Virus record (IMG/VR): IMGVR_UViG_3300028398_000015
Coordinates: 1 to 24,588 of that record
DNA length: 24,588 nucleotides
From: a virus
Reading direction: 5' to 3' (one strand)
The notes beneath the pieces were generated by a model. The model was not told the DNA's origin, did not search any database, and was given only the letters and a program-made list of their open reading frames with translations. Below are positions 263 through 22,742 of this stretch, one piece after another (positions within the stretch are counted from its first letter, which is position 1; each line of letters starts with the position of its first letter). Position numbers and translations under genes: made by a program.

Positions 263-3200
263 TTACACTACCTCTACAGATTTATTGAAACTTCCACCTC
301 TTACACTTGCCAATAATTGATTTCCAAGGTATTTAGATACTACTTGTGCTATTACTTGTCCATCTAGAGTTATAGTAGACCTGTTAGTAAGTTCTAGATT
401 GAAATTTATCGGTTGCTGTTCGTTCCCTAAACTACTAATTCTTCCTAATTCTTTTACATCTGGTAATTTTTCAAATTTACTTTTTTCACGTTCCTTTGAT
501 AAACTTCCACCAAGAATACTAAATGCTCTTTCCATATTATTTACAAATTTATCCAGTATTGATGGTAATGAAGATTGTTTATTATCATTTCCTATTAATC
601 CAAGCATCAATGGAGGTAGGAATGCTTTAGTTATAAATCCTATATCTTTTTCTGGTTCTTGCTTCCAAGGTTCACTATGATAAAAATCACGTCTTTCTTG
701 TTGTGGCTCTATAGGTAGAGATTTCAAATACTTAAGTTGGCCAATTTCGTCTTGTAGTTTAGTCTGATTATATAGTTCATTGTACGCTTGATAATCCCTC
801 CTATCTTGGTCTAATAACCCTTGGTAATTGTCAGTAACAGTAGGCTGCTGTTCTTCACCAGGTTTGTTTTCTTCTTCTGTCGTAGAAGTAGATTTTCCAT
901 TAAATCCACCACCCCCCTGGGCATTGAATTGCATAGCAAAGGCCTGGTATGGAACCCAGAAAGTAGCATTTGATGGAATATTGTAAATACCATCTAATTG
1001 TTTCTGGTTTATTTCTACAAGTTTATTTATAGCCATCTGTAAAATAAGATTATCTTCATGTAATATCTCAGTTCCATTATCACTATAGATTAACCCTACT
1101 TCTTGTGGTTTTAGTTTATAATCAGGAAAATTAGTTTTTATAAAATTTCTAGCCCAATCAAGTGCAGCATGTAATTCAGCACTTCTAGTAGAAGGAAAAT
1201 TGACAGTTTGTATTCTCATTTGTTGAGATGATTTTTTCATCTCTGGACTAAGTTTATTCTCTTGTAGTAATTCTTTTCTAGCAGTTTCCCAAGCATCTCT
1301 GGTTATACCCTTAGTTAATAATATTCCTTCTTTGAAGTCAACAAGCATTTCTCTTAGAGATTTAAGATACGCTTGCCATTCATCTGCTGTTAAAACACCA
1401 GCCTCTATAAGTTTATTTCCAAACTCTTGCATTTTCTCTTTTGCTCTTTCATAAATAGCATTAGCATCACTTTCTGTAGCATTCTTTTCTTTGATTACTT
1501 CTGGCATATTGAAATTTCTTACATGAATGTTTTGAAGTGTGTTATTGGCGTAGTCTATGACCTGCTGTTCCAAGTCTTTTTCTTTTAGTCTTAATTCAAC
1601 AGGAATTATAACCCCCTTGGAACTCATATCATCTATTTTCTGCTGTACTTTCTCAAGTTCAGTTAATAGAGATGTCATCTTAGAGATTTCTTCATCAGTC
1701 CCTTTTACATAAATTTCTGATAGTTTCTCCAATCCTTCTGCTGAATCTTTAGTTTTATACCCAACCAATTCTAGACTATCTCCAAGAGAATAATAAATAA
1801 ACGGAAGATTTGAAGATAGATTTGATATTCTTTCTAATCTTTTTTCATATTCAGCAGCAGAAATATTCCCTCTCTGAAATGCGTCTTTTACTCCCTTTTC
1901 TAGTCTAGAAATAATTGAAGAAAATTCCCCTTGATGTGATTTAGCCGCAGCCACAACATTTTTATCAAATGGTGTAACAGGGTTTTCTAATCTATTTCTT
2001 GGGATAACATTATCTGCTTCTATTCTGCTTGCTTTTAGTAATTCAATAGCAAGTTGTTGTTTATCCTTTCCAAAAAATGCACCCGTTTCAGCAACAAATT
2101 TGGCAAACCCCCATCTATATCCCTTTCCTCTATCAAATATGTCTACATCTTTTTGCGCAGTCTTGTTGCCTAGAACAGCCAATAATTTTATCACCGTATC
2201 TACACTTGCCTTAGAAGCCCATCCTAGAGCCCGTGTAAAGAAACTGCTATAAAATTTTTCTTCTAAAGTTTTAGATTCTTCTGTTACATTTGGCTTTTGC
2301 TCCTCTTTCTTTTTATTAAATTCTTCGGCCATCATTTGGGCAATAGTTCCGCTATCTTTATTTACAGACCTCACAAATCCACTTGCAATTGTATCGCCCG
2401 CTGACATTAGTAAAGGTGCTAACTCTGGTTGCCCAAAAGCAGTCGCCAATATGCCCCCAATCGTCATTCCTGCGATACTTCCAATAGCCTCTTGCTTGTC
2501 GTTTTCATTTCCACTAAAATACTTGGAAGCAGCCCCACCAATAATAGCAGTTCCTACTAACCCAGTTGCTACCATATTAGGGGTAAGTTTAAATCTTGGC
2601 TGTTTAACCCATCCCTGGGAAGTAAACTCTTTTCCTGAGTACCCAAATAATTTTCCAGATAAAGTGTTTATAGGAGCAGCAATCGCACCTAATCTATTGC
2701 TACGTCTTAAATACCCAATTAGAGGTAACAAAGTCATTAATGTTACCCCTGCTCTACCAGTTGTATCTACAAATACATCCATTAGTTTTATTATATCAGA
2801 TAAAACTGTAGAAAGATTTGAAAATAAATCTAATACCCCACCATCACTTCCGATTGTTTCGGCAAATTTTTGAAAAGAATTTGCAAGTCTGGTTAAAGAA
2901 GACCTAGCAGTATCTAATTTTACCTTCAATGCTTTTTCAGATTCACCAAAAGCATCGTTTGAAATCTTAGCAATACCTAATGCCTTTCCATATACTTTTA
3001 TCATGTTGATAAATGGGGCAGCCCTTCTAGAACCACCTGCAAGACTTCTGGCTAATTCTTTCAATTTTGTATCGTCTATAATTCCAGCAGAATATCTAGA
3101 AGCAATCTCATCTAAAATATCACCAAAATCTCTAAATTCCCCCTTTAAATCTCTTACGGCAATGCCAATTTCATTAAGTTGTCTTTCTGCTTCAGAAGAT

Positions 3201-6076
3201 TGAACATTTGAGATAAACGACCGCAAAATATTACCAACTTCTTTACCACTATAGGGGGTAGATTCTACCAGTGCCGCTACAATACCGTTTAGTTTGTCTA
3301 CACTAAACCCAGAATTTAAGGCCGCCGCACCAACTACTGAATATGCTTCTGCTAAATCATTTATTCCAACTTGGGCATTTTTACTTACTGCTATCCACTT
3401 ATCTAATAATTTTTCTGCCTGAGATAGAGGCATATTTGCTTGTCTCAAAGCACCTACTAATATATCAATTGCTTCTGCCTGGTCAATAGAAGCAAGTTTT
3501 GAAAGTATGAGAGATGTCTTTAGTACTTTTAGTGCTACAGCAGTTCTTTGAAATTGATTACCTAACCCAGCAGTAGCCCTATAAGCAGCAGAAAATCCCT
3601 CAATAGCATCATTAATTGATGTAGCAGTTTCATCTGCAACATCTGCAATTTGTTTGAATACTCTTCCACTTTCTCTCATATTAGTATTCAAAGCAATTGC
3701 CACATTTGCTAATTTTGATTGATTATCTATAGAAATATTTATAAGTTCGTTTAGTTTCTGAAGAGGAACATAAGTAAGTTGAATAGCAATTGCCCATTTG
3801 GAGGCCTCGACAATATTTCTCATTACCCCATCAAGAAATCCTTGATACTTTCTTTGTACATCTCTTAATACGTTTCCGTATTTGTCCATAGAGAGGGATA
3901 ACATTCTTGTTTCTCCATTTAATCCCTCCATAGCAAATGTAAATCTAGTAATACCCGTAGAGGCTTCTGTGTGAATTTTCTTTAGATTTTCAATTTTAAA
4001 TCCGTATTTTTCTGCTTTTTCTATTACTGAAGAATATATTCTTTTTACTCTTTCCAATTCTTCTGTAGAAAACCCTCTTCCGCCTAAATCTTTTTTACTA
4101 AACCCAACACGACCTGCTTCGTCAGTAAAAACAGAAAATTGCTTTATTTCACCGTTGGCGTCTTTTATAGCAAATACGAGTTCTGTAATTTTAGTCTTCT
4201 CATCTCTTATAACACCAACAAGATTTTTCACGCTACCACCAAATCTATTGGCAGCATCCATAGCATTTTTATACGCCGAAGAAATTCTTAGAGTTTCTTC
4301 TACTGTTAATTGTGACGCCTGTCTTGAGTCTTCAAATATTCTTCCTTGTGCATCTCCGTATAATTTCTTAGTATACGGCATATTATTTTCGTCTTTTGCC
4401 GTAAATGAAATTTCTGTAATATTACCAAATTGCCTTATTCCGCTAATATCTTTCAGAGAGGCACCATATTTTTCTATTTCTTTTGTTAGGTTCTTAAATC
4501 TATCCGCCAATCTGTCAAGAACTTCTGTAGGAAGTTGTCTCCTCATTTCTGATAAAGACCTTCCTATTCTTCCCATCTTATCTGCGTATAAAGTTAACTT
4601 CCCTATTTCTTCATTATGTAGAGTAACTTTTGCTACATTTCCACCTTGAAGTCTTTCTATATTTATTACATCTTCAAGACTATATCCATATTTGAAAACT
4701 TCTTCTCTTAGATGTTGAAAATCTACTGCAAGTTTTCCTATTTCATCTCTCGTTACTTTAGAAATATTATTTAAATTCTCATGTACTTTACCTAATCTAT
4801 CTACATATAAGACTACTTTCTTTATTTCTTCCCCTTCTTTTTCGTATCCAGTTACTTTATACACCCCGCTCTGAAGTCTTGTTACATTGAAGTTATTTCC
4901 AAATCTTGAGTTAATATCATAGCGCAATTTAGGAAATTCCTTTGTCATTTCATCAAATAACGCTTTAGATTGTAATGCTAATTCTTCTTTTCTGCTTCTT
5001 ATAACTCTTCCTTGTTCGTCCAATTTAAGAGTAAGTTTTTCTACCACGCCCTCGGCGTTTTTAGTTACAAATGTAAATTGTCTTACTCCAGCAGAAGCAT
5101 TGTGATAGGCATTTTCAAGATTTTTTACAGAAAGATTATGTTGCTCCACAAATTTCTGTAATTCTGGAAATTGACCCAATAGAGTATTAAATTGTTCTTC
5201 TGTAAATCCTTTTAGAAATTCCCTTTTAGTAAACCCAATTCTTCCTTCTTTATCAATATAAACAGACTTCTTGAAATTTCTTCTTTCATCCCCAAGAGTA
5301 ACTTGCAAAGCGTCAGGTGAAATATCAGGACGTGCAGAAACGTTGAGGATATTTTTCTCTGTCATCCCCAATTCTCTCAATACTTCTGCAAGTCCTTTGT
5401 ATTGTTTCGTTAGTTCCGATACTTGTTCACTTGTAAGTCTTGAAGCAAATGCAAGATTTGAATGTACTTCCCCAAGTCTATCAATATAAAATGAAACTCT
5501 TTTGGCTTCTTCCCCTTCTTCTTTTATTTGCTCACCAATAACTCTATAAATACCTTTGCCTATCTGTTTCGGCTCTTCTACTATACTAACAATATTAAAC
5601 TCATCTTTTAGTTTCTTCATTATCCCAGAAAACGCTTTTTCTAATTTTTCTGCATAAATATCTACATTAGAAATAGCAATCTCTGGAGTAATTATAATTT
5701 CTTCTTGATTAAGTTTAGACACTTCTTGTTTGGCTTTCTCTACTTCTTTTGCTATAACATCAGCATTGATTTTTGGTTCTTTTATCTTTTCTACTTCTCT
5801 CTGTATTTGAGAAATAGCATTAGATACTGTAGTAAGCCTGTCTATAGTATCCTGAGGTATATTTATAACTGGAGACTTCCCAGAAGATAGTCTATTTATA
5901 GTTTCTATGTATACATTAATTATTTCTATAAAAGTTTTCATTCCTCTCTCTGAGGTAGAAAACTTTTCAACCATAGAGGCAAGAGAATTGGTAAGTCCAC
6001 TAATTGCTGGATTTACTTTTTCTATGGTACTGGCTATCTCTTTTAATATTGATACAAATTGTTCTAGTTCATTCAT
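263..6076 (-). CDS. Tail tape measure protein with N-terminal repeat array
   Basis: At 1937 aa this is by far the largest gene. It follows the tail chaperone genes, which is the standard tape measure position. Such proteins set tail tube length and are threaded through the tube lumen. Residues 1-160 are helical and charged. Residues about 165-745 hold eight diverged modules of about 76 aa, each with a D-x2-G-[RKEN]-[VI] turn, starting at D199, D275, D353, D426, D499, D575, D652 and D731. Residues about 760-1060 match the TP901-type core in character (for example TATSINDAIEGF, QRTAVALKVLKTS, STPYSGKEVGNILRSF). Hydrophobic glycine-rich stretches near 1100-1122, 1165-1185 and 1198-1215 could be membrane-active. 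The C-terminal third is coiled and charged. The ATG lies 8 bases after a GGAG that overlaps the previous gene's end. The assignment is secure; the repeat function is unknown. Confidence 0.95.
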   Translation of the reverse strand: MNELEQFVSILKEIASTIEKVNPAISGLTNSLASMVEKFSTSERGMKTFIEIINVYIETINRLSSGKSPVINIPQDTIDRLTTVSNAISQIQREVEKIKEPKINADVIAKEVEKAKQEVSKLNQEEIIITPEIAISNVDIYAEKLEKAFSGIMKKLKDEFNIVSIVEEPKQIGKGIYRVIGEQIKEEGEEAKRVSFYIDRLGEVHSNLAFASRLTSEQVSELTKQYKGLAEVLRELGMTEKNILNVSARPDISPDALQVTLGDERRNFKKSVYIDKEGRIGFTKREFLKGFTEEQFNTLLGQFPELQKFVEQHNLSVKNLENAYHNASAGVRQFTFVTKNAEGVVEKLTLKLDEQGRVIRSRKEELALQSKALFDEMTKEFPKLRYDINSRFGNNFNVTRLQSGVYKVTGYEKEGEEIKKVVLYVDRLGKVHENLNNISKVTRDEIGKLAVDFQHLREEVFKYGYSLEDVINIERLQGGNVAKVTLHNEEIGKLTLYADKMGRIGRSLSEMRRQLPTEVLDRLADRFKNLTKEIEKYGASLKDISGIRQFGNITEISFTAKDENNMPYTKKLYGDAQGRIFEDSRQASQLTVEETLRISSAYKNAMDAANRFGGSVKNLVGVIRDEKTKITELVFAIKDANGEIKQFSVFTDEAGRVGFSKKDLGGRGFSTEELERVKRIYSSVIEKAEKYGFKIENLKKIHTEASTGITRFTFAMEGLNGETRMLSLSMDKYGNVLRDVQRKYQGFLDGVMRNIVEASKWAIAIQLTYVPLQKLNELINISIDNQSKLANVAIALNTNMRESGRVFKQIADVADETATSINDAIEGFSAAYRATAGLGNQFQRTAVALKVLKTSLILSKLASIDQAEAIDILVGALRQANMPLSQAEKLLDKWIAVSKNAQVGINDLAEAYSVVGAAALNSGFSVDKLNGIVAALVESTPYSGKEVGNILRSFISNVQSSEAERQLNEIGIAVRDLKGEFRDFGDILDEIASRYSAGIIDDTKLKELARSLAGGSRRAAPFINMIKVYGKALGIAKISNDAFGESEKALKVKLDTARSSLTRLANSFQKFAETIGSDGGVLDLFSNLSTVLSDIIKLMDVFVDTTGRAGVTLMTLLPLIGYLRRSNRLGAIAAPINTLSGKLFGYSGKEFTSQGWVKQPRFKLTPNMVATGLVGTAIIGGAASKYFSGNENDKQEAIGSIAGMTIGGILATAFGQPELAPLLMSAGDTIASGFVRSVNKDSGTIAQMMAEEFNKKKEEQKPNVTEESKTLEEKFYSSFFTRALGWASKASVDTVIKLLAVLGNKTAQKDVDIFDRGKGYRWGFAKFVAETGAFFGKDKQQLAIELLKASRIEADNVIPRNRLENPVTPFDKNVVAAAKSHQGEFSSIISRLEKGVKDAFQRGNISAAEYEKRLERISNLSSNLPFIYYSLGDSLELVGYKTKDSAEGLEKLSEIYVKGTDEEISKMTSLLTELEKVQQKIDDMSSKGVIIPVELRLKEKDLEQQVIDYANNTLQNIHVRNFNMPEVIKEKNATESDANAIYERAKEKMQEFGNKLIEAGVLTADEWQAYLKSLREMLVDFKEGILLTKGITRDAWETARKELLQENKLSPEMKKSSQQMRIQTVNFPSTRSAELHAALDWARNFIKTNFPDYKLKPQEVGLIYSDNGTEILHEDNLILQMAINKLVEINQKQLDGIYNIPSNATFWVPYQAFAMQFNAQGGGGFNGKSTSTTEEENKPGEEQQPTVTDNYQGLLDQDRRDYQAYNELYNQTKLQDEIGQLKYLKSLPIEPQQERRDFYHSEPWKQEPEKDIGFITKAFLPPLMLGLIGNDNKQSSLPSILDKFVNNMERAFSILGGSLSKEREKSKFEKLPDVKELGRISSLGNEQQPINFNLELTNRSTITLDGQVIAQVVSKYLGNQLLASVRGGSFNKSVEVV
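3842..5584 (-). repeat. Eight tandem ~76-residue coding repeats inside the tape measure gene
   Basis: The encoded protein segment (residues about 165-745) is built from eight diverged copies of one module: a short beta hairpin, a turn with D-x2-G-[RKEN]-[VI], then a helix ending near a KYG- or RFG-like motif. The turn sequences are DRLGEV, DKEGRI, DEQGRV, DRLGKV, DKMGRI, DAQGRI, DEAGRV and DKYGNV. Distances between successive aspartates are 76, 78, 73, 73, 76, 77 and 79 residues. The last copy is incomplete because it runs into the TP901-like core. The copies are too diverged to be seen as DNA repeats. Confidence 0.85.
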
Positions 6077-6081
6077 ATAAG

Positions 6082-6357
6082 TTACTCCACATCATTAATA
6101 TCAATTATTATTCCATCTACTTGGTTTGATTTCTTTGTATCAAATACTTTATCAAACCATTTATCTATATCCTTTTTCTTCCCGTCCCAGATTAATTTTT
6201 CTGGGGGACGTTTTTCTCTCGGTAATTCATTATAAGATTCTACCTGCATCCTCTTTCTTATGACAAAAGAAATTGTGTATGGCATATAATTAATATTTTC
6301 AAGTTTTCTATCTAAAGGATAGCGCAACGCCTTGGCTACTGCCCATATAGAAGCCAT
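6082..6357 (-). CDS. Tail assembly chaperone, frameshift extension (T-like part)
   Basis: This 91-codon frame from its first ATG sits between the first tail chaperone gene and the tape measure gene, the place of lambda T. The frame is open further upstream, to a TAG at 6481-6483, so it overlaps the preceding gene by about 108 bases. The ATG at 6355-6357 has no recognisable ribosome binding site. A -1 slip on the A AAA AAA at 6375-6381 enters this frame and adds residues IARSNA before the ATG, giving a 236+6+91 = 333-aa fusion. By analogy with lambda gpG/gpGT, the fusion would coat and fold the tape measure protein and recruit tail tube subunits. The protein is basic and begins MASIWAVAKALRYPL. 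It is most likely made only as the frameshift extension rather than alone. Confidence 0.8.
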   Translation of the reverse strand: MASIWAVAKALRYPLDRKLENINYMPYTISFVIRKRMQVESYNELPREKRPPEKLIWDGKKKDIDKWFDKVFDTKKSNQVDGIIIDINDVE

Positions 6358-6381
6358 AGCGTTGCTTCTGGCTATTTTTTT
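6324..6381 (-). promoter_or_regulatory. Programmed -1 ribosomal frameshift signal
   Basis: Reading the minus strand, the zero frame ends TTA AAA AAA TAG, so the heptamer A AAA AAA (6375-6381) lies directly before the stop codon. After a 9-base spacer (6366-6374) comes a hairpin at 6324-6365. Its outer stem is GCAACGC with GCGTTGC, then a U-G wobble and an A-A mismatch, then an inner stem TGGCT with AGCCA, and a 14-base loop. A GGAAG that could act as a Shine-Dalgarno-like stimulator lies just upstream of the heptamer. Slippery heptamer, spacing and stem match the layout of known bacterial and phage -1 signals. The frameshift rate cannot be read from sequence. Confidence 0.85.
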
Positions 6382-7082
6382 AATTCTTCCATAGGTATAT
6401 CTATTGACATATAAGAAGTTACAAATTGTTCTCTTATCTTGGAGGGAAGTTTTGATACCTGCTCTGGAGAAGTGAATAATCTATCTCTATATTCTTTATC
6501 TTTATATGTAGCATAGTAAACACAAGAATCCATAAATTTGTTTTCAAGTTCCTTTGTAACAAAAGTTTCAATAATTCTATTCTCCAGTAAACCCTTTAAT
6601 ACTTCTTTATGCTTTTCATTTAATTGTTTCTTTCTTCCCCTAATAATTTTATTAAGATTTTTTCTGATTTCCTCTGAAACAAGTTGTGGATATTGGTCAA
6701 CTTTTTCCTGGTATTCAACCCATTCTATAGTGCTAGCGTCTTCGTCAGGCTCTTTTGGAAATGGAATATCAACTTCAGAAGTTGCTTTTTTATGCAAGTC
6801 AGGAAGTTCATACATAATTATCGTGTCAATTATTTCTTCCTTTTTCATTCTGTTCATATTAGGAAGATATGCTTTATGTTCGTCTGTTCCTTTCTTATAA
6901 ATCTTTTCTTTTAGTTCACTGGCCTTTCTTAGTGCATATACTCTTGACCGATTCAACTCTTCATCAGAAACCACTCTCATATATACGTCAAAACTTTTTC
7001 CATCGGGTAATATAATAGTAAATACATCCCCCCAATGAAATAGTTTCTCAATATCAACATCATTCTTTTCTGGTGTTATCAT
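6372..7082 (-). CDS. Tail assembly chaperone, N-terminal (G-like) protein
   Basis: This 236-aa acidic and basic, mostly helical protein lies between the major tail protein gene and the tape measure gene. In siphoviruses that is the position of the G-type tail chaperone. It starts at an ATG 7 bases after AAGGAGG and ends at a TAG that directly follows the A AAA AAA slippery run, so part of translation should continue into the next frame. The N-terminal region (for example DVFTIILPDGKSFDVYMRVV, residues about 18-38) looks like a small beta-rich tail-chaperone domain, and the rest is helical. It is longer than lambda gpG (about 140 aa). It lies directly downstream of an intrinsic terminator, so its transcript level is probably lower than that of the major tail protein. 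Function is assigned from position and the recoding signal, not from a recognised domain. Confidence 0.8.
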   Translation of the reverse strand: MITPEKNDVDIEKLFHWGDVFTIILPDGKSFDVYMRVVSDEELNRSRVYALRKASELKEKIYKKGTDEHKAYLPNMNRMKKEEIIDTIIMYELPDLHKKATSEVDIPFPKEPDEDASTIEWVEYQEKVDQYPQLVSEEIRKNLNKIIRGRKKQLNEKHKEVLKGLLENRIIETFVTKELENKFMDSCVYYATYKDKEYRDRLFTSPEQVSKLPSKIREQFVTSYMSIDIPMEELKK

Positions 7083-7103: not shown

Positions 7104-7147
7104 AAATAAAAAAGGGGCTAGTCTTCTTATAAAATAAGACTAGCCCC
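7104..7147 (-). terminator. Rho-independent terminator after the major tail protein gene
   Basis: On the minus strand a perfect 12-bp stem (GGGGCTAGTCTT with AAGACTAGCCCC, 10-base loop, 7114-7147) is followed at once by six T residues and TATTTA. It sits 33 bases after the stop codon of the major tail protein and before the ribosome binding site of the tail chaperone gene. No promoter is seen between it and the chaperone gene, so downstream tail genes must be reached by read-through. The plus-strand reading has no T tract, so the element is directional. Confidence 0.9.
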
Positions 7148-7180: not shown

Positions 7181-8377
7181 TTATTGTCTATTACCACTAT
7201 ATACCATTACCACAGCATCTTCAGACCGGAAGTTGAACTCCACAATACCATTTTCATTTACATTGAATGTATGAGTATCACCGACAATAGAAATGCTTGG
7301 TAAATAGTATGTCTTTAGGACATTACCACTTACAGTAGTATCACATGGGTCATATAATTTAATCTCTAAATCAAGCCCACCTGCAGTGCATCCTTCACCA
7401 ACTGAAAACTCAGTCTCTCCAGAATTGGTGCTGCCGTTTAGTAACAGGTCAATTAATTCTGTATCGGTGTCAAGAACTCTAATTCTACCTTCTACAGTAG
7501 GAACTTGTCTTTGGTATCCAATAACACCCCGGCTACCCATTTCTTTTACTTCTTGTACTCTCATATTACCGTTAATAGTAACAGATTGTACTCTAGGAAC
7601 ATTGGTTGCAGAAATCACAATTTTTACATCACCACCTTTTATAGCCGCGGGCATAGTGTCATCACTAATGTCTGACCAATTATCACCAGAAGGATTTGCA
7701 TGATATACGGCTAGTAGTTGTTCAGTTCTGCTATCACCAGTGGTAATAGTATTAGTACCGGGGTCATAAGAATATTCACCGCTTCCTGGTGTTCCACTTA
7801 CTTCAGTTAAGTAATTACCATCTAAAATTACAGATAGTAAGTATTCTCCATTCTTCAGTTGAATTGGTGTTTCGCTAAGAGTAAAGGAAGTAGTGCCACT
7901 AGTAAATTTGTCTACTACTACATCATATTTGAATAATCTTTTGGTAGAACCAACAGCGGTATAATTTTCTTCGGCCTCACCATCTACAGAAAAATTATAA
8001 GAAAAATCTCTAATTTGCATTCTCTTTACATGAATGCTTTTCACATAATCACTTTTCTTAGCATCTTTTACATAGATAATAAAATCTGCTTCCCCTAATT
8101 CTTGTGTAGAAACACCACTAGATGGATAGTTATTAGCATCTACACCAGTAAGTACAGAAAATAATTTTACACCAGTATCAAAAGCAGAAAACGTAATGGT
8201 AGAAGTCTTTGGGTCTTTTACAATACCAGCATGATTTGGGTTACCAAGTTCATCTACATCATTTACGGGAACATTTTCTTCTGAAGATAATCTCTGTACT
8301 CTAGGAATAAATGCAGCGTCTCTTGGGCCTACAATTCGTAAAGCAACCTCTTTTGAGGCAACTGCTAATCTCGTCAT
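7181..8377 (-). CDS. Major tail (tube) protein
   Basis: This 398-aa beta-rich protein is followed by a terminator and then the tail chaperone cassette, the expected place of the tail tube subunit. It begins MTRLAVASKEVALRIV and is rich in Thr, Ser, Val and Gly with many short predicted strands, as in tube proteins. It has the segment RVQSVTINGNMRVQEVKEMG and near the end TFNVNENGIVEFNFRSEDAV, which fits a tube-forming beta sandwich. It is longer than many siphovirus tube proteins, so it may carry an inserted or added beta domain in the middle (for example FTLSETPIQLKNGEYLLSV to TNTITTGDSR). The ATG is preceded by AAGGAGG. The strong terminator immediately downstream suggests high-level expression of this gene relative to those after it. 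Tube role is inferred from order and composition. Confidence 0.8.
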   Translation of the reverse strand: MTRLAVASKEVALRIVGPRDAAFIPRVQRLSSEENVPVNDVDELGNPNHAGIVKDPKTSTITFSAFDTGVKLFSVLTGVDANNYPSSGVSTQELGEADFIIYVKDAKKSDYVKSIHVKRMQIRDFSYNFSVDGEAEENYTAVGSTKRLFKYDVVVDKFTSGTTSFTLSETPIQLKNGEYLLSVILDGNYLTEVSGTPGSGEYSYDPGTNTITTGDSRTEQLLAVYHANPSGDNWSDISDDTMPAAIKGGDVKIVISATNVPRVQSVTINGNMRVQEVKEMGSRGVIGYQRQVPTVEGRIRVLDTDTELIDLLLNGSTNSGETEFSVGEGCTAGGLDLEIKLYDPCDTTVSGNVLKTYYLPSISIVGDTHTFNVNENGIVEFNFRSEDAVVMVYSGNRQ

Positions 8378-8391
8378 TTTACTTTTCCTCC

Positions 8392-8847
8392 TTAGTCGCT
8401 CTTATAAGTGGCAGTATAATAAACTTCTGCCGCTCTATAAAACATCGTGACTAAATTTGGGTCTATTTGTGGTATCTTTACAACAACTCTTCTAGGTTCT
8501 ATACACCCAATTTGAGAAGGATTTGTATCTGGTGGGAAACCTTCATCGTAATTGTAAACTGGAACTTTATTTTTGAAGAGTTGCTTCGCTATTAGATAGG
8601 CTAAGTAGTCTCTTTGAGTCTTGTTCTTTGCATAGATATATATTATCCACCCCCTGTTTACTAAACTTGCTTTCGTACCTAATTCAAAATTGGAAAACTC
8701 AGCAGTCCTATTTTCTACTGCTATAATTGGTATATCATCCTCTGTAACTCTAGTTTCTGGAAATCCATCAACTACAGTTACAGAATTGGGAACAATACTT
8801 TTTATATACTCTACAACAGATATATCTTGTAATCTTTCTTCTATCAT
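8392..8847 (-). CDS. Probable tail terminator / tail completion protein
   Basis: This 151-aa protein is encoded immediately upstream of the major tail protein gene, where siphoviruses place the tail terminator, which caps the tube and joins it to the neck. The pattern is typical: an N-terminal helix (MIEERLQDISVVEYIKS), an alternating strand with a central helix (NKTQRDYLAYLIAKQLFKN) that resembles the core of tail terminators, and a C-terminal strand RRVVVKIP followed by YRAAEVYYTATYKSD. The start ATG overlaps the end of the preceding gene by four bases (ATGA type), indicating translational coupling. I recognise the shape rather than a named family; a minor tail protein of the gpU or gpZ type would be the alternatives. 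Confidence 0.6.
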   Translation of the reverse strand: MIEERLQDISVVEYIKSIVPNSVTVVDGFPETRVTEDDIPIIAVENRTAEFSNFELGTKASLVNRGWIIYIYAKNKTQRDYLAYLIAKQLFKNKVPVYNYDEGFPPDTNPSQIGCIEPRRVVVKIPQIDPNLVTMFYRAAEVYYTATYKSD

Positions 8848-10521: not shown

Positions 10522-11646
10522 TTAGAACTCTCTCCAAAAATCTCTTGCTATTCTATTCCAGTCAAAGAAATCAGAATTAAATTTTTCTTCTGTTGCTTTA
10601 GAAACTCTATAATAGTAATCTGAATCATAATATAAACTATTAAGTGCGATTGCTACGTCTTCTGGGTGTACTACACTAAATTCAGCATTAGTTCCTGGGG
10701 CAATAGATTTAATTATTGGGTCAACGGTAACACCAATATCACCAAATAATTCACCACTGGCAGAATTATTGGGGACAACTTGTGGTTTTCCGAGTTTACC
10801 CATCTCTATTTGAACTAAGCCGTACCCCTCGCCCTCACTACTATTAATTCCGACAGTTGCAGAATTGAAAATTGCATTTAATACATTCTGAGAAACTCTT
10901 TGTATCCCTCTTTCTTTATTTGTAATAATGAGTTTATCTTCAATTCCATATCTTTTTGCAAGTTTAATAATATTCCATCCACTATCTACAACCCCCATGT
11001 GTAGATATAATCTTACATCGTCCTTACCTTTTGCAAAAATTGAAAACGCTTCTATAGTTATATCTATTCTCTTTCTTGGTTGATTTCTATTCGCATTTAA
11101 AACTACAAATAAATCTTTTCCACCAACAAGTTTTTCTCTCTGGGCTTCAAAATTATTAAGTTTATAAAATCCTTCGTCAACACCATGTGGAAGTAAAATA
11201 GTATCTGTTTTATATACTCTATTAGTTTCCTCTCTTCCAAACTCTGTATAAACAAATACCTTTTTTACATACTTTGGAAATAGAGAAAAATAATCTGGGT
11301 CTATGTATTTTGAATCAACAGGATAATATACATATACTGGAATATTATTTATATTGTTTTGTAATAGCGAAATTAAGTATTTGTTTATAATTCCAATATC
11401 ATTGAACAAAAATACAACATCAGGTTTTAGTAGATTTACTAATTGTGGTAATCTTTTAAATCCGTAAATATCCCCTCCTGGGTATGCTGGGTAAATCTTA
11501 TGTTTATAATTATGGGGGTCACCATAATAATTAATAGCCAGATGGTGTACTTCTATATCATCTGGCACTCTACTAATTAAATTATGTGCTACTCTACTAA
11601 ACCCCGTTGGTACTACACCATCGGATACCCATAAAACCTTTTTCAT
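10522..11646 (-). CDS. Glycosyltransferase, GT4-type (group 1)
   Basis: The protein is 374 aa from the ATG at 11644-11646. An in-frame TTG directly before it (11647-11649) is possible, but the ATG has better spacing (7 bases) to AAGGAG. It shows the two-lobed layout of GT-B enzymes: an N-terminal lobe with KVLWVSDGVVPTGFSRVAHN, a linker strand and a C-terminal lobe with VVLNANRNQPRKRID and the family signature E-x7-E in GEGYGLVQIEMGKLGKP (E274 and E282, numbered from the TTG). A retaining sugar transferase using a nucleotide-sugar donor is expected. It sits among neck genes, between the holin-like gene and the zinc-ribbon connector gene. Possible targets are phage capsid or tail proteins, or host surface glycans, but the sequence does not tell which. 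No signal peptide or membrane segment is visible, so it probably acts in the cytoplasm. Confidence 0.9.
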   Translation of the reverse strand: MKKVLWVSDGVVPTGFSRVAHNLISRVPDDIEVHHLAINYYGDPHNYKHKIYPAYPGGDIYGFKRLPQLVNLLKPDVVFLFNDIGIINKYLISLLQNNINNIPVYVYYPVDSKYIDPDYFSLFPKYVKKVFVYTEFGREETNRVYKTDTILLPHGVDEGFYKLNNFEAQREKLVGGKDLFVVLNANRNQPRKRIDITIEAFSIFAKGKDDVRLYLHMGVVDSGWNIIKLAKRYGIEDKLIITNKERGIQRVSQNVLNAIFNSATVGINSSEGEGYGLVQIEMGKLGKPQVVPNNSASGELFGDIGVTVDPIIKSIAPGTNAEFSVVHPEDVAIALNSLYYDSDYYYRVSKATEEKFNSDFFDWNRIARDFWREF

Positions 11647-11670
11647 CAATCCTCTCCTTTTGGTATTTTA

Positions 11671-20864: not shown

Positions 20865-22742
20865 ATGATAATTAATCATCATTACGAACTTCAACCTTTC
20901 TTTGATTCTCTAAAAAAGACAGATAAAATAGGATTTGACATAGAAACCTCAGGTCTTGATTTTATAGATGATAATATTTTGTCTTTACAGTTTTTAGTAA
21001 ATGATGATATTTTTGTCTTTACAAATCCAGAAATGTTTAATTATATTATTAGTCTTGTAGAAGATAAATTGTTAATTGGACATAATATTAAATTTGATAT
21101 GAAATTTGTCTTTAGTAAATTTGGAATTTTACTTAAAAATGTATACGATACAATGATTGCTAATGCAATCTTAAATGCTGGAATTAATGGGTTTAATTAT
21201 ACTTCTCTCAATTCTCTTGTTGAAAGATATTTTGGAATTAGTCTAGAAAAAGAAATTAGAAAAGAATTTGAAAATGCTTCTGAATTAACAGATGAAATGA
21301 TAGAATACGCTGGTAATGATGTAAAATATCTTATTGATATTTATAATATTCAGAAAAAAGAAATTTCCGATAATAAATTAAACAGAATTTTAGATATGGA
21401 GATGAAGTTACTTCCAGTTGTTGTTTCTATGGAAGTAGAGGGAATAAATCTTGATATAGACAAATGGCTATCTATTTCTGAAGAAAAAAGAGAATTAGCA
21501 ACTAAACTAGAAAATAAACTTAAAAATATACTATTATCAAGAGCACTATCTTCTCTTAGTTACAATAATTTATTTGAACTCATGGAAAAATTATCAATTC
21601 CAGTAACTAGAAAGAGAGATAGAGAATTATACGAATCAATTCGTCCTGGTGATAAAAATTTTATTGAAATATTATCAAGTAAATTAAACATCGGAAGTAC
21701 AAAGCAATTAAAGACATTACTAAATATTTATGGCATTGGTGTTGATTCAACTTCCTCAAAGGCACTTTCTGATTACGAATTGAAACATAAATTGACAGAA
21801 GACCAAAAAGAGTTATTTGAAACCATTTCAAAATACAGAGAAGCAAGTAAAAGAGCAACTGCATTTGGTAAAAAATATATTGAAAAATATGTAAAATCAG
21901 ACGGAAAAATCCATGCTGAGTTTAATCAATTAGGAACTGCTACTGGAAGATTTAGTTCTTCTAATCCAAACTTACAGCAAATTCCTCACACTATGGATTA
22001 TAGAAGTTGTTTTATTGCTAGCCCAGGAAAAAAGTTAATTACAGCAGATTATTCTCAAATGGAATTGAGAATTATGGCTGCTGTTTCAAATGAGCATAAG
22101 ATGATAAACGCTTACAAGAATGGGAAAGATTTACATAGATTAACTTCATCATTAATTTTCAATAAACCTGAAGAAGAAATAGAGAAAGAAGAACGCTCAG
22201 TCGGTAAGATGATTAATTTTGCTGTCTTATATGGTGCTGGTGCTTATAGAATTTCCTTAGCACTTGATATTTCTAGAAATGAAGCAGAAGAAATCTTAAA
22301 TAGATTCCATTCTGGATACAATAAGATGTATAATTTTATTGAGGAAGCCAGAAAAATTATTTTGAATAAAGGATACTCTGTTACAGTATACGGTAGAAAA
22401 AGATTTTTTGAAAAGCCAGATGTATATACAGATTATAAAGAGAAAAATAGAATTGAGCAAAGTATTATGAGGGAGGGTGTAAATCATATTATTCAAGGCA
22501 CTGGAGCAGATATTATGAAAGATGCCATGGTCAAAATGTTCTATCAGAATCCTTTTGGACACAATAAATTTAAGATTTTACTTCAAGTACACGATGAAGT
22601 TGTAGTAGAGGTTGATGAGGATATTGCTGAGGAAGCGAAAGAATTTATAAAATCAACAATGGAAAAAGCAGAATGCGTAGCACTTGGTAATAAACTTCCG
22701 TGCGAAGTAGACGCTAAAATAGCAGATACTTGGGTAAAATAA
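20865..22742 (+). CDS. polA: DNA polymerase, family A, with 3'-5' exonuclease
   Basis: This 625-aa replicative polymerase has an N-terminal proofreading domain: GFDIETSGLD (D25, E27), LIGHNIKFDMKF (N74, D78) and YAGNDVKYL (Y148, D152) carry Exo I, II and III. Then TGRFSSSNPNLQQIP (residues 360-374) leads into the polymerase core. Motif A is LITADYSQMELR (D395), motif B RSVGKMINFAVLYG (R444, K448, F452, Y456) and motif C QVHDEVV (H576, D577). The 5'-3' exonuclease of E. coli Pol I is absent, as in phage enzymes. Phe at the position of E. coli F762 predicts normal discrimination against dideoxy nucleotides. The ATG lies four bases after AGGAGG and is driven by at least two promoters. It opens the rightward replication module. 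Confidence 0.96.
   Translation: MIINHHYELQPFFDSLKKTDKIGFDIETSGLDFIDDNILSLQFLVNDDIFVFTNPEMFNYIISLVEDKLLIGHNIKFDMKFVFSKFGILLKNVYDTMIANAILNAGINGFNYTSLNSLVERYFGISLEKEIRKEFENASELTDEMIEYAGNDVKYLIDIYNIQKKEISDNKLNRILDMEMKLLPVVVSMEVEGINLDIDKWLSISEEKRELATKLENKLKNILLSRALSSLSYNNLFELMEKLSIPVTRKRDRELYESIRPGDKNFIEILSSKLNIGSTKQLKTLLNIYGIGVDSTSSKALSDYELKHKLTEDQKELFETISKYREASKRATAFGKKYIEKYVKSDGKIHAEFNQLGTATGRFSSSNPNLQQIPHTMDYRSCFIASPGKKLITADYSQMELRIMAAVSNEHKMINAYKNGKDLHRLTSSLIFNKPEEEIEKEERSVGKMINFAVLYGAGAYRISLALDISRNEAEEILNRFHSGYNKMYNFIEEARKIILNKGYSVTVYGRKRFFEKPDVYTDYKEKNRIEQSIMREGVNHIIQGTGADIMKDAMVKMFYQNPFGHNKFKILLQVHDEVVVEVDEDIAEEAKEFIKSTMEKAECVALGNKLPCEVDAKIADTWVK

Follow-up and report, generated by a model that had tools for sequence, protein, structure and literature searches.

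A conserved, predicted -1 frameshift signal between two putative tail-chaperone reading frames of a divergent phage

Programmed -1 ribosomal frameshifting is the ordinary way in which long-tailed phages make two tail-assembly chaperones, and a well-supported candidate, judged from sequence, is described here in a viral contig. The window, that is the whole stretch of 24,588 nucleotides analysed (IMG/VR record IMGVR_UViG_3300028398_000015), very likely carries on its minus strand a predicted cassette of the phage lambda G/GT type, in which a slippery heptamer and a downstream stem-loop would join two short reading frames into one fusion protein. A related phage, in which the heptamer, the spacer, the stem and the -1-frame peptide were all found again, lends strong support to the original prediction that a G/GT-like -1 frameshift would make a chaperone fusion.

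The frame pair lies between the predicted major tail protein gene and the tape measure gene, in the order tube-like protein, ORF1, ORF2 in the -1 frame and tape measure. The tape measure gene (263..6076, minus strand, 1937 aa) was recognized by Pfam PhageMin_Tail with an E value of 3.7e-22. The 398-aa gene upstream of ORF1 (7181..8377, minus strand) probably encodes the major tail (tube) protein, as suggested by gene order, by a match to the protein at the same position in phage GX15bay and by a weak match to a PHROG structural family. ORF1 and ORF2 gave no significant match to a tail-chaperone family in Pfam, PHROGs or PDB sequences, and the AlphaFold models of ORF1 (low confidence, pLDDT 57) and of the tube protein were too poor for structure search. 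A terminator-like hairpin followed by a T run was observed between the tube-like gene and ORF1 (7105-7146, minus strand, z -6.7), and in the relative the matching place is occupied by a hairpin whose sequence differs (z -5.2); this element perhaps sets tube protein expression above that of the chaperone. Finally, the structural gene module includes a GT4-type glycosyltransferase gene (10522-11649, minus strand), and an ORF of the same size is present at the matching place in the relative.

ORF1 (6372..7082, minus strand, 236 aa) would be the first, gpG-like chaperone frame and is preceded by a strong Shine-Dalgarno sequence, AAGGAGG. Its 3' end reads GAA GAA TTA AAA AAA TAG, with TTA AAA AAA TAG at 6383-6372 on the minus strand, and the heptamer A AAA AAA (6375..6381, minus strand) thus abuts the zero-frame stop TAG (6372..6374, minus strand), just as had been claimed. 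The ORF2 frame is -1 relative to ORF1 and is open across the junction, from 6480 down to its stop at 6084-6082 (minus strand), which bears out another part of the original prediction. After a shift, this frame (6082..6375, minus strand, 97 codons and a stop) would encode the peptide IARSNA followed by ORF2, a gpT-like domain, whereas ORF2 as called from its ATG (6082..6357, minus strand) counts 91 aa. A shift at the heptamer would give a fusion of 236+97 = 333 aa, in agreement with the 236+6+91 = 333 aa predicted earlier. The box in which the two frames overlap measures 109 nt in the window and 79 nt in the relative, and within it an in-frame heptamer of the X XXY YYZ type, A AAA AAA, is kept in both phages. 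In-frame heptamers of a shifty type occur at 12 of the 7751 codon positions of the window, which gives a chance of about 5% that one lands in the 109-nt box.

A predicted stimulatory stem-loop (6324..6365, minus strand; arms 6365-6352 and 6337-6324) begins after a 9-nt spacer, TAGCCAGAA (6366..6374, minus strand). According to RNAfold, the stem is formed by GCAACGCU/GGCGUUGC and then by UGGCU/AGCCA, that is an 8-pair helix (seven Watson-Crick pairs and a U-G), an A.A mismatch and a 5-pair helix, with 13 of 14 positions paired and a folding energy of -22.6 kcal/mol. The pair counts and the spacing proposed for this hairpin were right, but the mismatch between the wobble and the upper five pairs had been left out; likewise, the ATG at 6357 had been named without the fact that it sits within the 5' arm of the stem. 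The MFE of the 47-nt stem segment (-22.9) was matched or beaten by three of 7034 codon windows, itself included, which represent two loci, and one of 200 dinucleotide shuffles was as stable. When the region was recoded synonymously, with the -1-frame protein held and codons drawn from the phage's usage, the folding energy of the stem was reached by 2 of 5000 recodings for the window and by 0 of 5000 for the relative, and about 0.1% of recodings in each phage reached its pairing count. A pseudoknot between the loop and downstream sequence (UCUA/UAGA), weighed by eye, was too short to claim.

The relative, a 76.8-kb IMG/VR contig (IMGVR_UViG_3300005095_000173), was found by a terminase search; its terminase is 78% identical and its ORF1 64% identical to those of the window. 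When viral contigs were scanned with ORF1, ORF2, major capsid protein and terminase as queries, no relative beyond this one came up, and scans of genome contigs found none. The two junctions align without a gap over 72 nt, TTAAAAAAA is identical in both, and the relative has the same heptamer (L003, 1507-1501) and a spacer of equal length, followed by a stem of 12 contiguous perfect pairs. At stem pair 11 both sides have changed, from G-C in the window to A-U in the relative, while the A.A of position 9 is U-A and the U-G of pair 8 is U-A; because one informative relative was found, the covariation rests on the one double change. In the -1 frame, the relative has IARSNALASMWAV where the window has IARSNAMASIWAV. 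The peptide IARSNA, upstream of the window ATG, is conserved, the ATG itself is TTA in the relative, and all three base differences between the slip site and the ATG fall at third positions of the -1 frame. These third-position differences, together with the TTA, argue that ribosomes enter the -1 frame at the slip site rather than start it at the ATG. The conserved heptamer, spacer, stem and IARSNA peptide, the third-position differences and the rarity of equally stable recodings together make a G/GT-type -1 frameshift very likely.

Such conservation is not the default between the two phages, since two other strong slip or hairpin features of the window are lost in the relative. The first is a stronger hairpin (-28.8 kcal/mol) in the gene at 8392-8847, located at 8735-8790 on the minus strand and very stable (z -6.0 for 8720-8800). 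The second lies in the DNA polymerase gene (22028-22085, plus strand), where A AAA AAG precedes a hairpin and a -1 shift would yield a truncated enzyme; it was rejected as a second signal, the heptamer being absent in the relative. At the chaperone junction, the relative also has GGAGG 5 nt before the first slip lysine codon (L003, 1512-1516, minus strand) where the window has the weaker GGAAG, a difference with a possible modest influence on shifting.

On the proposed mechanism, ribosomes translating ORF1 would meet the stem 9 nt past A AAA AAA, and in a minority of them the two lysine tRNAs would slip back by one base. The slipped ribosomes would miss the TAG, read on into IARSNAMAS... and yield the 333-aa fusion, while most ribosomes would stop at the TAG, with the short form of 236 aa as their product. 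We infer the chaperone role of ORF1 and of the fusion by analogy with lambda: the tape measure protein would be coated by the short form, and the tail tube protein would be brought in by the extra domain of the fusion. In E. coli, A_AAA_AAA shifts far less readily than A_AAA_AAG (PMC5009743); a 7-A cassette of another gene family gave 10% shifting in that host, and the values for two cassettes from phage chaperone genes were 6 and 7% (PMC3711429). Given this weakness and these published cassettes, the rate would probably lie between a few and about 10 per cent.

The original prediction had gone further and taken the abutting stop and the clean stem as signs of a high-efficiency or stop-dependent shift, in which the TAG would stall the ribosome and drive the slip. 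The TAG does adjoin the heptamer, and in pea enation mosaic virus, the one exception where a nearby stop helps frameshifting, a stop 3 nt past the shift site matters strongly (PMC5009743). The relative nevertheless has TTG in place of TAG with all other elements kept; its zero frame runs on as KK-LRGATL, six codons past the slip, before its stop. The stop next to the slip is thus not conserved together with the slip signal, and a single T/A difference, with a zero frame that continues in the relative, places the TAG outside the conserved signal. Moreover, in mammalian and bacterial tests, including those of the HIV site, shifting fell when a stop took the place of the codon next to a -1 slip site (PMC4373837), and A_AAA_AAA is the weaker bacterial slip site. 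Stop dependence or special efficiency therefore seems improbable. A stop directly after the slip site is already known from Rous sarcoma virus and barley yellow dwarf virus (PMC5009743, PMC4373837) and from some bacterial dnaX genes (PMC5009743). Chaperone frameshifts make up most of the SEA-PHAGES training set, in which the mean slip-to-stop distance is 26 nt (PMC10885494); the stops at 0 nt in the window and at 18 nt in the relative are close to the slip site, as usual. It is similarly doubtful that in the window lineage the abutting TAG has joined the signal, in which case the ratio of short to fused protein would vary with the level of release factor 1 and with the state of the host, in contrast to the relative.

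A similarly improbable alternative to the frameshift is that two separate proteins are made without a fusion, ORF2 being translated by termination at the TAG and coupled re-initiation at the ATG 6357. The distances would suit coupling, as this ATG stands 14 nt past the stop and the relative has an ATG 5 nt past its own ORF1 stop. Nevertheless, the relative has TTA where the window has this ATG, and the -1-frame residues ahead of the ATG are conserved with third-position differences only. In addition, the ATG lies within a stable stem, and ORF2 is devoid of a Shine-Dalgarno sequence, as had been stated originally; its duplex energy of -0.2 kcal/mol is the weakest among the listed ATG-start genes. 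Least probable of the three is transcriptional slippage, in which an A added to the A7 run of some mRNAs would bring ORF2 in frame: the run is present in both phages and runs longer than seven As have been linked to slippage (PMC3711429), but seven As are at or below the usual threshold, and it is not obvious what a slipping polymerase would gain from a conserved downstream RNA stem placed at ribosomal spacing. Readthrough of the TAG was rejected, a second in-frame TAG following 12 codons downstream.

Phage searches with the terminase and the tube protein matched only the distant phage GX15bay, and a phage tblastn with ORF1 gave no match. The GX15bay region is syntenic, with ORF2 in the -1 frame and G GGA AAA in frame close to the aligned position, and a weak profile match links its ORF1 to that of the window. 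Its ORF2 similarity to the window ORF2 was not significant, and the stem that follows G GGA AAA does not stand out from shuffled sequences, 30% of which reach its stability. GX15bay thus lends weak support to a -1 frameshift, by position alone.

These findings place a conserved, predicted tail-chaperone frameshift in a divergent phage lineage, hardly any of whose proteins have annotated matches, and they allow a single recoded gene to be annotated in place of ORF1 and ORF2. The window and its relative, which share heptamer, spacer and stem but differ in the next codon (TAG in the window, TTG in the relative), also form a small natural experiment that bears on how a stop beside a -1 slip site affects the rate.

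Among known systems, the tail assembly chaperones gpG and gpGT of phage lambda are made by a -1 shift at G GGA AAG. In the window, as in lambda, a pair of frames immediately precedes the tape measure gene, the predicted -1 shift falls towards the end of the first frame and a zero-frame stop lies near the slip site; the window differs by its A AAA AAA heptamer, by a stem directly downstream, by a stop that abuts the slip and by ORFs without a detectable sequence family match. The -1 frameshift of E. coli dnaX, at A AAA AAG with a stem-loop, offers the same combination of an A-run heptamer and a simple downstream stem-loop; however, the dnaX shift shortens the product, uses an upstream Shine-Dalgarno stimulator and has another purpose. 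In the gpG/gpGT pair of TP901-1, which slips at GGGAAAG (PMC4493119), the genetic layout and the presumed role are alike, whereas the heptamer differs and no sequence family is common to both. Finally, in the Chlorobium-type dnaX candidates (PMC5009743, PMC3711429) a stop comes right after an A-run slip site and the shift would give a longer product, as predicted for the window, although these are cellular genes with a putative mechanism.
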